Below, one piece after another: positions 7,583-11,770 of a stretch of DNA of 64,000 bases. Origin of the DNA: Nitrospirota bacterium (GTDB lineage: Bacteria; Nitrospirota; Thermodesulfovibrionia; Thermodesulfovibrionales; UBA9159); contig JAJYIF010000010.1 of assembly GCA_021790195.1 (NCBI GenBank), positions 53,890 through 117,889 of the forward strand, in the 5' to 3' direction. Each line of letters starts with the position of its first letter. The first letter of the stretch is position 1. A program made the translations under genes and the position numbers. The notes under the pieces are model-generated. The model did not search any database. It saw only the letters and a list, made by a program, of their open reading frames with translations, and was not told the DNA's origin.

Positions 7583-8671
7583 ATGAGCACTGTCAGAGAT
7601 GACCAAAGTATCTGGGAGGGACTTTCGAAGAAAGGCGTTTCGAGAAGAGACTTCATGAAGTTCTGTTCAACCATGGCTGCCACGCTGGCACTGCCATCCA
7701 GCTTTGTCCCCCGGATTGCAGAGGCGCTCGAGAAGAAACAGAAGCCGTATGCCGTATGGCTCGAATTCCAGGACTGCGCGGGAGACACCGAGTCCATCTT
7801 GCGCGCAACAAAACCTACCATTGCTCAGATAGTCCTTGATGTGATCTCTTTGGAATATCATGAGACGATCATGGCAGGCGCGGGAAAAGCTGCGGAAAAG
7901 GCTAGGGACGACGTAGTAAAGAACCAGAAAGGCAAGTATATCGCCATCGTCGAAGGGGCCATTCCGACAAAAGACGGCGGCATCTACTGCACTATAGCAG
8001 GCAGGACGGCACTCGACATTGCAAAGGAAGTCTGCGGCAACGCTGCCTTCACTATTAACGTCGGCTCCTGCTCCTGCTGGGGCGGCGTTCCGAGCGCAAA
8101 TCCGAACCCCACGGGGGCGGTGGGCACCGGCGAGGCGGTATCGGGAATAACCTATGTGAACATCCCGGGCTGCGCACACAATGTTGAGAACGCAACCGCC
8201 ACGATAGTCCACTATCTGACTTTCGGATCTCTCCCGCCCGTAGACAGCCACCACCGTCCGCTCTTCGGCTATGGCAAGAGGATCCATGACAACTGCGAGA
8301 GACGCGCACACTTCGATGCGGGCCAGTTCGTGAGGAAGTGGGGAGACGAAGGCCACAGGCGCGGCTGGTGCCTTTACGAGATGGGCTGCAAGGGGCCGGA
8401 GGCCTATTACAACTGCCCCACCGTGAAATATAATTCCGGAACATGCTGGCCTGTCCAGGCCGGACATCCCTGCATGGCCTGCGCGGCAGATCATAACTGG
8501 GACGCCTTCGGACCGATCTACAAGAGACTCGAGAATGTTCCAGGAGCAGGTTATCAGACATCTGCAGATAAGATAGGTCTTGGTGTTGCAGCGGTAGCGG
8601 CAGCCGGTGTCGCAGCCCATGCAATTGCAAGGGCTGTAAAGGGCAAACCCAAAGACGAGGAAGATAAATAA
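7583..8671 (+). CDS. hyaA: [NiFe] hydrogenase small subunit, Tat-exported, membrane-anchored
   Basis: 362 aa; electron-transfer subunit of a group 1 type uptake hydrogenase. A Tat signal is present (SRRDFMKF, residues 20-27), with a C-terminal hydrophobic anchor at about 331-350, so the enzyme faces the periplasm. Cluster ligands: distal H235, C238, C263, C269; medial C278, C297, C300 with P290 kept (WPVQAGHPC), which implies [3Fe-4S]. Proximal ligands are C65, C163 and C197, but the fourth ligand position is D68 (DCAGDTES instead of CxxC). Asp at this position is known from actinobacterial-type (group 1h) hydrogenase of Ralstonia. C165 (GSCSCWGG) and C288 (TCWP) are extra cysteines close to cluster ligands. 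GGAGGTG precedes the ATG. Confidence 0.95.
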   Translation: MSTVRDDQSIWEGLSKKGVSRRDFMKFCSTMAATLALPSSFVPRIAEALEKKQKPYAVWLEFQDCAGDTESILRATKPTIAQIVLDVISLEYHETIMAGAGKAAEKARDDVVKNQKGKYIAIVEGAIPTKDGGIYCTIAGRTALDIAKEVCGNAAFTINVGSCSCWGGVPSANPNPTGAVGTGEAVSGITYVNIPGCAHNVENATATIVHYLTFGSLPPVDSHHRPLFGYGKRIHDNCERRAHFDAGQFVRKWGDEGHRRGWCLYEMGCKGPEAYYNCPTVKYNSGTCWPVQAGHPCMACAADHNWDAFGPIYKRLENVPGAGYQTSADKIGLGVAAVAAAGVAAHAIARAVKGKPKDEEDK

Positions 8672-8687
8672 ATAAAGGAGGATTGGA

Positions 8688-10397
8688 ATGGCTAAGATCG
8701 CGATTGACCCCATCACGAGGATTGAAGGACATCTAAGAATCGAGGCCCAGGTCGAAGGCGGCAAGGTCACGGACGCATGGTCATCCGGGACCATGTTCAG
8801 AGGAATCGAGATCATCCTGAAGGGCAGGGACCCGAGGGAGTGCTGGGCGTTAACCTCGCGAATATGAGGGGTTTGAACAACGGTCCACGCACAGAGCTCC
8901 GTGAGAGCCGTGGAAAATGCAGTAGGCGCAACGATTCCTGATAACGCAAGGATCATAAGAAATCTTATTAACGGCATTCAGTACGTCCAGGACCATGTCA
9001 TACATTTTTACCACCTCCATGCCCTGGATTGGGTGGACGTGGTCAGCGCACTGAAGGCCGATCCTGTGAAAACAGCCGCGCTGGCCCAATCCATATCGGA
9101 CTGGCATAATTCGAGCCACAGTTATTTCAAGGATATTCAGACCAGGATCAAGACATTTGTGGAAAGCGGCCAGCTCGGTCCCTTTGCAAGCGGCTATTGG
9201 GGACATCCCGCATACAAGCTGCCCGCCGAAGCGGACCTTATGGCAGTGGCCCACTATCTTGAAGCCCTCGACTGGCAGAAAGACGTCATAAGGATGCAGG
9301 CGTTACTCGGTGCCAAAAACCCTCATCCGCAGACATGGCTTGTAGGCGGCATGGCCATACCGGTCGATCCCAACAGCCAGAATGCCATTAACGCCGGAAG
9401 CATCGCGTTCATGAAGGAGCTTTCGAAGAAGGCCCTCGCGTTTGTCGAGAAGGTCTATATCCCGGATTTGCTTGCCGTGGCCTCCTTCTATAAAGAATGG
9501 GCCACTGTAGGGGGCGGAGTAGGTAACTATCTCAGCTACGGAGAGTTCCAAAACGACAATGTCAGCAACACAACGAACTGCTGGCTCCCGCAGGGTTTCA
9601 TAAGGAACAAGAACCTGGCAAAAGTCGAGCCGGTCGATCAGATAAAGGTCGCCGAAGACGTGGCCCGTGCCTGGTATAAGTACAGCGGCGGAGACCAGAA
9701 GGCACTGCACCCTTATGAAGGAGAAACGAATCCGGACTATACCGGCCCCAAGCCGCCCTATGAATTCCTTGACACCGACAAGAAGTACAGCTGGGTCAAG
9801 GGAGTGGGATATGACGGCCTCAGGACAGAGGTTGGGCCGCTTTCGAGAATGCTCGTCGCATACGGCTCAGGTCACAAGAGGATCAAGGAAGTGGTGGACA
9901 TGGTTCTCCAGAAGCTCGGCGTTGGACCAGCGGCCCTTTTTTCGACTCTCGGCAGGACTGCTGCGCGGGGCGTAGAGACGCTGGTTACAGCGGAAATGCT
10001 GCCGGTATGGATTGACGACCTTGCGGCGAAGATCAAGAGCGGAGACCTCCGCATTCATAACAACGATAAATGGGACCCTTCGACATGGCCGAAGGAGGCC
10101 AAAGGATACGGTTTCCATGAGGCACCCCGCGGCGCTCTCTGCCACTGGGTGGTGATCAAAGACGGCAAGGTCGCAAACTATCAGTGCGTGGTCCCGAGCA
10201 CATGGAATGCGGGACCCCGGGATGCCAAAGGCCAGCGCGGACCATATGAATCAGCACTGCTCGACACGCCGGTCAAAGACCCGAATAAACCTCTGGAGAT
10301 ATTGAGAACAATCCATTCCTTTGACCCCTGCATGGCCTGCGCAATACATGTCCTGGATGCCAACAGGGACGAGATAATCAAGGTCAGGGTCGTATAG
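8688..10397 (+). CDS. hyaB: [NiFe] hydrogenase large subunit with two in-frame TGA codons at the N-terminal CxxC (putative UxxU selenoprotein)
   Basis: 569 codons if TGA at 8865-8867 (codon 60) and 8874-8876 (codon 63) are read through. The start ATG follows AAAGGAGGATTGGA, and the protein begins MAKIAIDPITRIEGHLRIEA, the family N-terminus. Around the TGAs the frame reads RI-(TGA)-GV-(TGA)-TTVHA, against the family motif RxCGxCxxxH: both nickel-ligand cysteines, and nothing else, are TGA. The frame then runs uninterrupted for 506 codons to DPCMACAIH (C548, C551, H554), followed by a 15-residue tail that HyaD would remove. Selenocysteine is the likeliest reading; Cys insertion by a UCA-anticodon tRNA or a doubly mutated gene are alternatives. 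Starting from the GTG at 8901 would lose 71 residues, including both ligands. Confidence 0.85.
8884..8914 (+). promoter_or_regulatory. Candidate bacterial SECIS hairpin inside hyaB
   Basis: TCCACG (8884-8889) pairs with CGTGGA (8909-8914), and inside it GCTC (8896-8899) pairs with GAGC (8905-8908) around the loop CGTGA. A 6-nt bulge lies on the 5' side. The loop begins 32 nt after the first TGA and 23 nt after the second, within the 16-37 nt spacing known for bacterial SECIS elements, and its second base is G as the bacterial consensus asks. Stem stability was judged by eye only. Confidence 0.5.
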
Positions 10398-10405
10398 GAG
10401 GAGCC

Positions 10406-11047
10406 ATGATTAAGAGGATTTATGTCTGGGAGTTTCCCGTAAGGTTGACTCACTGGCTGAACGTACTGAGCATATTGGCGCTGGCAGTGACCGGGATATA
10501 TATCGGCGCTCCTTATCTCTTCGCCGTGAACGAAAACCAGTTCATCATGGCAAAGATGCGGTATGTCCACTTTATCTCCTCATATGTCTTCACTGTGAGC
10601 TTCCTTGTGAGGATTTACTGGATGTTTGCCGGCAATAAGTTCTCACGGTGGAGACAATTTGTCCCTATAAGCAAAGAGCGGCTTGAAACCTTGTATGGCG
10701 CCACCGCTTACTACTGCTTTCTGAGAGAAAAATGTCCTAGAGTGATAGGGCATACCGCGCTTGCGGGCGTTACGTACCTGCTGCTCTTCATCCTTTTCCT
10801 CATCGAGATACTGACAGGGTTCGCCCTTTACTCGCAAAGTCACATAGGCGCTTTCTGGACGCTCATGGGAGGGTGGCTTTTTGCTGTCATGGGAGAAGGA
10901 ACAGTCCGTCTCGTACACCATATGATTACATGGCTTATAGCGGTGTTCGTTATTGTTCATATCTACATCGCCTGGCTTAATGACCTTTCCGAGAGGAACG
11001 GTCTCATGAGCTCGATATTCAGCGGATACAAGTCAGTTGAGGAATAA
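10406..11047 (+). CDS. hyaC: Hydrogenase cytochrome b subunit
   Basis: 213 aa integral membrane protein with four hydrophobic helices. RLTHWLNV, MRYVHFISSYVF and VRLVHHMITW / VIVHIYIAW supply the histidines expected to bind two b-type hemes. The family anchors the small subunit and passes electrons from H2 to the quinone pool. It starts 8 nt after hyaB with GGAGG before the ATG and overlaps the maturation protease by 11 nt. Its presence indicates a respiratory H2-uptake role. Confidence 0.92.
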   Translation: MIKRIYVWEFPVRLTHWLNVLSILALAVTGIYIGAPYLFAVNENQFIMAKMRYVHFISSYVFTVSFLVRIYWMFAGNKFSRWRQFVPISKERLETLYGATAYYCFLREKCPRVIGHTALAGVTYLLLFILFLIEILTGFALYSQSHIGAFWTLMGGWLFAVMGEGTVRLVHHMITWLIAVFVIVHIYIAWLNDLSERNGLMSSIFSGYKSVEE

Positions 11048-11552
11048 GGGCAGACCGGATATTGCCGTACTGGGACTCGGAAACATTCTCTTAAAGGATG
11101 AGGGAGTCGGGGTCAAGGTGGCGGAATTGCTGAAGGAGAGGTTTGCCTTCTCTCCCGAAGTGGAGATTATCGACGGCGGAACTCTGGGCCTCGACCTCCT
11201 TCCCCTCATCGAAGACAGGGGAAAAGTCCTTATCATTGATGCCGTTGATTTCGGGAAAGAGCCAGGATTTATTGCATCAATAGAAGACGATGATATACCA
11301 TCGGTCCTTTCGGCTAAAATGTCCGTGCACAGCATAGGTCTCTCCGACGTCCTCTTTGCGGCGAAATTACTCGGCATAACGCCAGGGAAGCTTTGCCTTA
11401 TAGGCGTACAGCCGCAGTCCCTCGATGTCGGGCTTGATCTCACAGACTGCATCGGTGATAAAATAGAACGACTCATCGACATGGCTATAAACAAGCTGAA
11501 GGAGTGGAATGTAGAATGTGCCTCGCTGTCCCCTCAGAGATTGTCTGCATAA
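11037..11552 (+). CDS. hyaD: Hydrogenase maturation endopeptidase
   Basis: 171 aa from a TTG at 11037 that overlaps the hyaC end. VLGLGNILLKDEGVG is the family N-terminal motif with the metal-binding acidic residue; DGGTLGLDLLPL and HSIGLSDVLF carry the other two nickel-sensing ligands (Asp and His). This protease removes the C-terminal tail of the large subunit after the DPCxxCxxH histidine once nickel is in place. The adjacent large subunit still encodes such a tail, which argues the system is functional. Confidence 0.9.
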   Translation: MRNKGRPDIAVLGLGNILLKDEGVGVKVAELLKERFAFSPEVEIIDGGTLGLDLLPLIEDRGKVLIIDAVDFGKEPGFIASIEDDDIPSVLSAKMSVHSIGLSDVLFAAKLLGITPGKLCLIGVQPQSLDVGLDLTDCIGDKIERLIDMAINKLKEWNVECASLSPQRLSA

Positions 11553-11770
11553 ACGATTTCGTCGCCACCGTAGATGTTCATGGCGCAAGGAGAGAGATAA
11601 GCCTCCTGCTCCTGCCCGAACCGGTTGAGGTGGGGGATTTCGTCATCGTCCATGCCGGCTTTGCGATCCAGAAGATCGACAGAGAGGCGGGCAATGAGGC
11701 GCTCAGGATGATAAGAGAGCTGGTTGAGTCAGAGGAATTCCAGGAACAGTACAAAGAAGATTTCGTGTAG
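11516..11770 (+). CDS. hypC: Hydrogenase assembly chaperone HypC
   Basis: 84 aa when started at the ATG at 11516, giving MCLAVPSEIV. HypC needs Cys directly after the initiator Met, so this start is chosen over one four codons earlier; GGAGTGG lies about 9 nt upstream. HypC/HybG/HupF proteins carry the Fe(CN)2CO unit with HypD and dock on the large-subunit precursor through this Cys and the N-terminal CxxC of the subunit. That docking site is the place where the adjacent large subunit has TGA codons. It overlaps hyaD by 37 nt. Other hyp genes are not in the window. Confidence 0.92.
   Translation: MCLAVPSEIVCINDFVATVDVHGARREISLLLLPEPVEVGDFVIVHAGFAIQKIDREAGNEALRMIRELVESEEFQEQYKEDFV

Follow-up and report, generated by a model that had tools for sequence, protein, structure and literature searches.

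In the solved structures of [NiFe] hydrogenases, the first cysteine of each Cys pair in the large subunit is a terminal ligand of the metal site and the second a bridging ligand. The window analysed here, a stretch of 64 000 nucleotides from the genome of a Nitrospirota bacterium (an assembly of 3.3 Mb in 54 contigs), contains a large-subunit gene in which both codons of the N-terminal pair are TGA. Is this a damaged gene, or does it encode a metal site of another composition? We conclude that the two-UGA hydrogenase gene is real and conserved. It very probably encodes the large subunit of a group 1 uptake [NiFe] hydrogenase, with UGA60 and UGA63 both read as selenocysteine (Sec, U), and the Ni–Fe site would be held by U60 (terminal), U63 (bridging), C548 and C551.

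The large-subunit gene

The gene lies on the forward strand (8688..10397; 569 codons), starting with ATG 8688 behind the ribosome-binding site AAGGAGG (8675–8681, forward strand, read directly in the window sequence) and ending with TAG at 10395–10397. Direct reading confirmed what an earlier note on this DNA had described: the frame meets TGA at exactly the two cysteine positions of the RxCGxC motif, codon 60 (8865..8867) and codon 63 (8874..8876), and then stays open for 506 sense codons, with the motif DPCMACAIH intact (residues 546–554; 10326..10352, forward strand). The nickel ligands of this second motif, C548 and C551, are both encoded as cysteine, and a maturation cut is predicted after His554.

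When TGA is translated as cysteine, the 569-residue read-through product matches Pfam PF00374 with 776 bits over the whole profile (positions 1–508 of 508). The best solved relative is 3MYR (710 bits, aligned over 3MYR residues 4–561), and both TGA positions stand opposite the cysteines of its RICGVC motif. By motif order, U60 and U63 correspond to Cys61 and Cys64 of E. coli Hyd-2, and C548 and C551 to Cys546 and Cys549; codon 60 is thus the predicted terminal nickel ligand and codon 63 the predicted Ni–Fe bridging ligand. Homology to group 1 large subunits spans the whole chain, and the C-terminal DPCxxCxxH motif and a maturation protease are found as in that group. The RxCGxC motif is there too, but both of its cysteine codons are TGA, and it agrees with the group only if Sec is counted as cysteine. 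In-frame UGA codons at positions where homologues carry cysteine are what is expected of a bacterial selenoprotein.

Elsewhere in the window TGA is a normal stop codon, terminating 11 of the 26 open reading frames judged to be genes. These include uvrA, which the earlier note had cited for the same point, and they rule out a genome-wide recoding of TGA.

Operon and small subunit

The large-subunit gene is preceded by a [NiFe] hydrogenase small subunit with a twin-arginine signal (7583..8671; TIGR00391, 424 bits, cut-off 179.5; TIGR01409, 25 bits, cut-off 16.7; PF14720) and followed by a b-type cytochrome subunit (10406..11047; TIGR02125, 167.7 bits, cut-off 121.5), a HyaD/HybD-type maturation endopeptidase (11037..11552; TIGR00140, 164.8 bits, cut-off 151.8) and a HypC-type maturation chaperone (11504..11770; TIGR00074, 74.8 bits, cut-off 48), all on the forward strand. 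This gene order is that of uptake hydrogenases, and the exported small subunit and membrane cytochrome, both with models above their cut-offs, are those of group 1.

The small subunit itself has DCAGDTES where 1H2A has ECTGCSES, with aspartate in place of a motif cysteine that we take to be a ligand of the proximal cluster. Aspartate or asparagine stands at that position in 62 of 71 UxxU loci among the motifs listed. In a check of 20 fetched upstream stretches the motif was readable in 11. A tie between this aspartate and Sec is unsupported, because three CxxC copies are also accompanied by it.

Recurrence of the TGA pair

Both TGAs occupy the same two codons in all 30 loci that were read first, the window locus included. 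A search of 121 related genomes found a homologue in 91 (E ≤ 1e-60), with two TGAs inside every one of the 39 best-scoring rows; most relatives that carry a label are given as Nitrospirae or Nitrospirota, with Thermodesulfovibrionales named for several. Across 395 genomes of the phylum a homologue is present in 153 (E ≤ 1e-80), and among the matches listed two-TGA copies occur in 71 genomes and one-TGA copies in 26 (five of the latter genomes, G097, G188, G317, G387 and G398, lay outside the codon-level reading); G343 carries both kinds. The compared genomes are related, so these recurrence counts are not independent of one another.

A selected set of 98 copies taken from whole genomes was read at codon level and comprised 48 UxxU, 21 CxxU, 29 CxxC and no UxxC copies. 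In all, 207 copies were read (173 distinct; the automated reading missed one CxxC copy, L226). TGA stands at the codon-60 position in 157 and at the codon-63 position in 178 of these, a set partly selected for TGA. The first TGA alone (UxxC) was not seen among the 207, and the second alone (CxxU) occurs in 21. At exactly positions 60 and 63, which the earlier note had suggested checking, the homologues that were read have either TGA or cysteine codons. The C-terminal motif retains cysteine in all 156 readable copies among 178 with UU or CU (duplicates between collections included).

With one genome per species, 84 980 species were scanned for a DNA pattern that demands both TGAs. At least 119 stretches were returned, among them 109 hydrogenases with UxxU and ten that match by chance and are not hydrogenases. 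Because the TGAs were part of the pattern and only matches listed were counted, these 109 or more UxxU contigs show the spread of the trait and not its frequency. Among the matches listed, the 109 copies come from Nitrospirota, Chloroflexota (Anaerolineae, Thermoflexus and others), three genomes labelled Deltaproteobacteria and a few vaguely labelled ones; one isolate contributes two. The TGA pair therefore belongs to a family found in at least two phyla and is no lone oddity. That two chance nonsense changes would be improbable, as argued earlier from the single gene, is borne out by the presence of the pair in 30 of 30 loci read first and in 109 of the 119 matches listed for the DNA pattern.

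Scattered stops, which would have pointed to decay, are absent from the homologues read, except for a further early stop in two of the 109 UxxU copies, L066 and L104; in 20 others the locus ends before the frame does. The extra stop lies 160 codons past the motif in L104 (CP070788.1) and 424 in L066, and may reflect decay or assembly error. Some cysteine copies showed TAA or TAG in similarity searches; in those that were read, the frame is open past the C-terminal motif.

Several genomes combine forms. CxxU and CxxC copies occur together in G119 and in G046, UxxU and CxxC copies in G320, and in G343 the CxxU and UxxU copies lie about 3.9 kb apart (the loci of the mixed-form genomes are L216; L181 and L188; L183 and L189; L054 and L186). 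The genome of the window has a second hydrogenase-like stretch (L002, C21:54668-55414) that is 42% identical and contains one TAA within the match. The best 120 of 8000 database relatives (P0001–P0120, the window's own included) are 477–504 residues in length and look as if the part up to the UGAs had been removed.

History of the Sec and Cys forms

A FastTree phylogeny was built from 141 rows (the 173 distinct copies minus 26 that were not full length and six near-identical ones) with the two trait columns masked. On this tree the three states UU, CU and CC need nine changes. One clade, with 109 rows from Chloroflexota and Nitrospirota, contains 91 UU, 14 CC and four CU copies, the CxxC and CxxU copies being nested among UxxU; the nested copies read as cases in which one Sec or both were lost later. 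Another family (20 rows), about 52% identical, is mostly CxxU, with 16 CU, two CC and two UU copies. The Chloroflexota rows in the tree came from the UxxU pattern, without their cysteine relatives.

Selenocysteine machinery

Sec insertion would depend on selA, selB, selC and selD, and all four were found in the genome of the window when looked for as the earlier note had suggested. The selA and selB genes lie 744 bases apart on contig C45, and the tRNA-Sec has the anticodon UCA. The selD gene itself has an early in-frame TGA (SSCAG-TGA-ASK), presumably at the active-site position.

Across the 395 phylum genomes, SelB is present in 70 of the 71 two-TGA genomes and 25 of the 26 one-TGA genomes (together 94 of 96), against 78 of the remaining 299; in this count, genomes whose weaker matches fell outside those listed were scored as lacking TGA. 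The SelB search gave no match in two TGA-bearing genomes, G367 and G073, both drafts. In a further 20 UxxU genomes tested (17 Chloroflexota and three with the delta label), SelB was found in 19, with no match in G406 (L067). Fisher values for this association overstate independence because the genomes are related. SelB alone does not imply the TGA trait, since 33 of the 57 genomes that have a homologue but no TGA copy among the matches listed also have SelB.

The earlier note had also suggested looking for a tRNA-Cys with a UCA anticodon. None was seen, although a tRNA-Cys shaped like tRNA-Sec does exist in this genome (L013:1501-1591, that is C36:66663-66753; 64.3 bits, RF01852), called with anticodon GCA. 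Of 61 related genomes, 28 contain DNA similar to it. The anticodon was examined in 17 related loci (L254 and L255 not among them): 14 were called tRNA-Cys(GCA), three gave no call, and none had UCA. It matches the selC* tRNA-Cys of Nitrospirae described in the available text of PMC7609411, which also reports some elsewhere with an opal anticodon.

A candidate decoding signal

In both the UU (115) and CU (21) copies, synonymous codon choice is restricted around U60, from roughly codon −2 to codon +16. The constraint mostly fades beyond this range, codon +19 in UU being an exception, and is lower in the 20 CC copies. The valine at +12 is encoded by GTG in 135 of 136 Sec-type copies compared with two of 13 Cys-type copies, GTG making up 31% of the valine codons in Sec-type genes (CxxC rows lacking C[TS]TVH were left out of the codon and fold comparisons).

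The constrained region of the window gene contains a predicted hairpin, a candidate SECIS, at 8884..8914 on the forward strand, proposed from fold energy and codon constraint, with paired stems 8884-8889/8909-8914 and 8896-8899/8905-8908 and the loop CGUGA at 8900-8904. Its fold energy is −11.5 kcal/mol (z −1.53; equalled in stability by 18 of 200 shuffles), and its loop is 23 nt from UGA63 and 32 nt from UGA60. In the UU copies the best hairpin within nt 20–50 has the Val +12 codon in its apical loop. This loop starts at nt 35 in 99 of 115 copies, with GGU (40), CGUGA (36) and CGUGC (22) as loop sequences; at three stem pairs, 30, 12 and three of the 99 copies have changed on both sides, mostly between clades. 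The nt 35 loop also occurs in eight of the 21 CU copies; a different stem, whose loop is at nt 30, is formed in 11. The gap from UGA63 to the loop comes to 17–23 nt, and the UGA-to-loop gap in the E. coli formate dehydrogenase mRNA is close to this range.

Mean fold-energy z-scores against synonymous recoding are −1.25 for UxxU (36 rows, the first 36 after thinning), −1.34 for CxxU (13) and −0.72 for CxxC (17). The UxxU stem register is paired at 0.74 in UxxU (best slid control 0.53) and at 0.35 in CxxU (slid 0.68). RNAalifold on the UxxU copies found no clean shared hairpin and the registers differ by clade; a single consensus SECIS for all Sec copies was therefore rejected, and the codon constraint is given more weight. 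The 5′ hairpin at nt 3–26 from U60, which surrounds UGA63, is no evidence for a second SECIS, because the Cys forms pair as well (0.81) as the Sec forms (0.88 and 0.80). A SECIS hairpin downstream of the UGAs is thus likely, not proven: the codon constraint fits it, but the fold z-scores are modest and the UU register fails in CU.

Alternative readings

Selection on the gene bears on whether it is read through at all. In five comparisons of the window gene with close relatives, pN/pS is 0.05–0.12 before the UGAs and 0.09–0.15 after them (dS partly saturated), and these low values on both sides indicate that both parts are kept as protein. Together with the recurrence of the same two codons in many separate assemblies, this rules out a sequencing error or a pseudogene. 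The same evidence bears on a restart at GTG 8901, which would give a 498-residue protein and would suit the lengths of the 120 database relatives, all as if starting after the TGAs; yet purifying selection acts strongly on the stretch upstream of the TGAs and the short product would lack two of the four metal ligands. We give error, decay or restart hardly any credence and regard the short database entries as presumably a product of gene callers stopping at UGA.

If the frame is read through, the residue could still be cysteine or another, inserted by a suppressor-like tRNA such as the tRNA-Cys shaped like tRNA-Sec, and the enzyme would then be an ordinary CxxC hydrogenase. The presence of that tRNA in the genome and in related ones, and the opal forms reported for its kind, speak for this. 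Its anticodon GCA, however, pairs with UGC and UGU and not with UGA, its occurrence is patchy (15 two-TGA genomes of the 61, for example G017, have no match at the threshold used), and TGA copies accompany SelB, with a true tRNA-Sec(UCA) in the window's own genome. We consider cysteine insertion very unlikely. Slightly less credible still is a reading in which only the bridging UGA63 is efficiently decoded as Sec and UGA60 is slow or regulated, making the gene partly a selenium-gated switch. The excess of CxxU over UxxC (21 to none among the 207 copies read) and the shorter distance of UGA63 from the hairpin loop would suit it, but UGA60 is kept across phyla, and a UGA60 acting mainly as a stop would be expected to revert to cysteine, as seems to have happened in the nested CxxU set. 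With neither error nor decay to account for the gene, a double selenocysteine appears by far the best reading. The earlier proposal that both N-terminal ligands are Sec is supported by the machinery and by homologues with TGA or cysteine at these positions, from which we infer selenium in the protein.

Relation to known hydrogenases and selenoproteins

The classical [NiFeSe] hydrogenase HysA has one Sec, in the C-terminal motif. To our knowledge, bacterial selenium hydrogenases have been described with a single Sec, at the C-terminal terminal position, and we know of no natural enzyme described as using the N-terminal terminal and bridging positions for Sec. Engineering work by Evans et al. 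in 2021 reportedly singled out the C-terminal terminal position as special. By sequence, the window gene shares with HysA (5JSU, 1CC1) the large-subunit superfamily and Sec as a nickel ligand (predicted here), but HysA carries its Sec in the C-terminal motif, where the window gene has both cysteines, and the TGAs are in the N-terminal pair. The cysteines in all 156 readable UU and CU copies likewise depart from the classical HysA signature DPUxxC, and the HysA-type NCBIfam models score below their cut-offs (NF045518, 396 against 780; NF033181, 544.1 against 600).

Group 1 [NiFe] hydrogenases (3MYR, E. coli Hyd-1 and Hyd-2) have the same fold, motifs and operon, with small subunit, cytochrome, protease and HypC; their N-terminal motif is CxxC, whereas the window gene has TGA at both positions. 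According to the available text of a 2024 JACS paper (PMC11212049), the HysA Sec is at the equivalent of Hyd-2 Cys546, and Sec has been put at each of the four nickel-coordinating cysteines of E. coli hydrogenase (Hyd-2 61, 64, 546 and 549). Those Hyd-1 and Hyd-2 variants carry one Sec each, introduced in the laboratory by amber recoding, in contrast to two predicted, natural ones at the equivalents of 61 and 64.

The archaeal F420-type alpha subunits (FrhA, VhuU) are hydrogenase selenoproteins too, but of another group and with UxxC and one Sec, which is how hydrogenase alpha subunits appear in the available part of a 2026 review (PMC13188914). Selenoproteins with UxxU in the accessible text of PMC13188914 and PMC9312934 are Prx-like, mercuric-reductase-like and FmdB-like; they have a Sec pair two residues apart as here, but are not hydrogenases, and no UxxU hydrogenase appears in the selenoprotein lists of these texts. 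Our search of the open literature (subscription journals and preprints being outside its scope) found no hydrogenase described as carrying Sec in its N-terminal motif, including the accessible text of PMC9723677, PMC9751293, PMC9469722, PMC4730141, PMC9961374, PMC6258894, PMC13111528, PMC8406227 and PMC8318568; a text search of PMC5330540 had no hit.

Proposed model and implications

In the model that we propose, SelB with Sec-tRNA(UCA) would decode both UGAs by way of hairpin structure just downstream, either one hairpin for both or two overlapping ones. The twin-arginine route would export the two subunits together, the large one would be trimmed after His554, and electrons from H2 would be passed to the b-type cytochrome. 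The Ni–Fe site would hold one terminal and one bridging selenolate, and selenium would tune resistance to oxygen or sulfide, or proton transfer, at the metal site. These genes quite probably represent a widespread and long-lived class of [NiFeSe] hydrogenase, with terminal and bridging Sec in UxxU, a bridging-only form in CxxU, returns to CxxC, and two UGAs nine bases apart.

Because the best 120 of 8000 database relatives look cut off at the UGAs, such enzymes are likely to be annotated without their N-terminal metal-binding part. How a ribosome would pass a second UGA nine bases after the first is a pointed question for decoding. If the reading is true, nature has produced a metal site in which Sec replaces both N-terminal cysteines and one of the two Sec bridges Ni and Fe. 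Such a site would bear on oxygen and sulfide tolerance and on proton transfer, and the CxxU and CxxC relatives that occur in nature, in some cases within one genome, would allow the forms to be compared.
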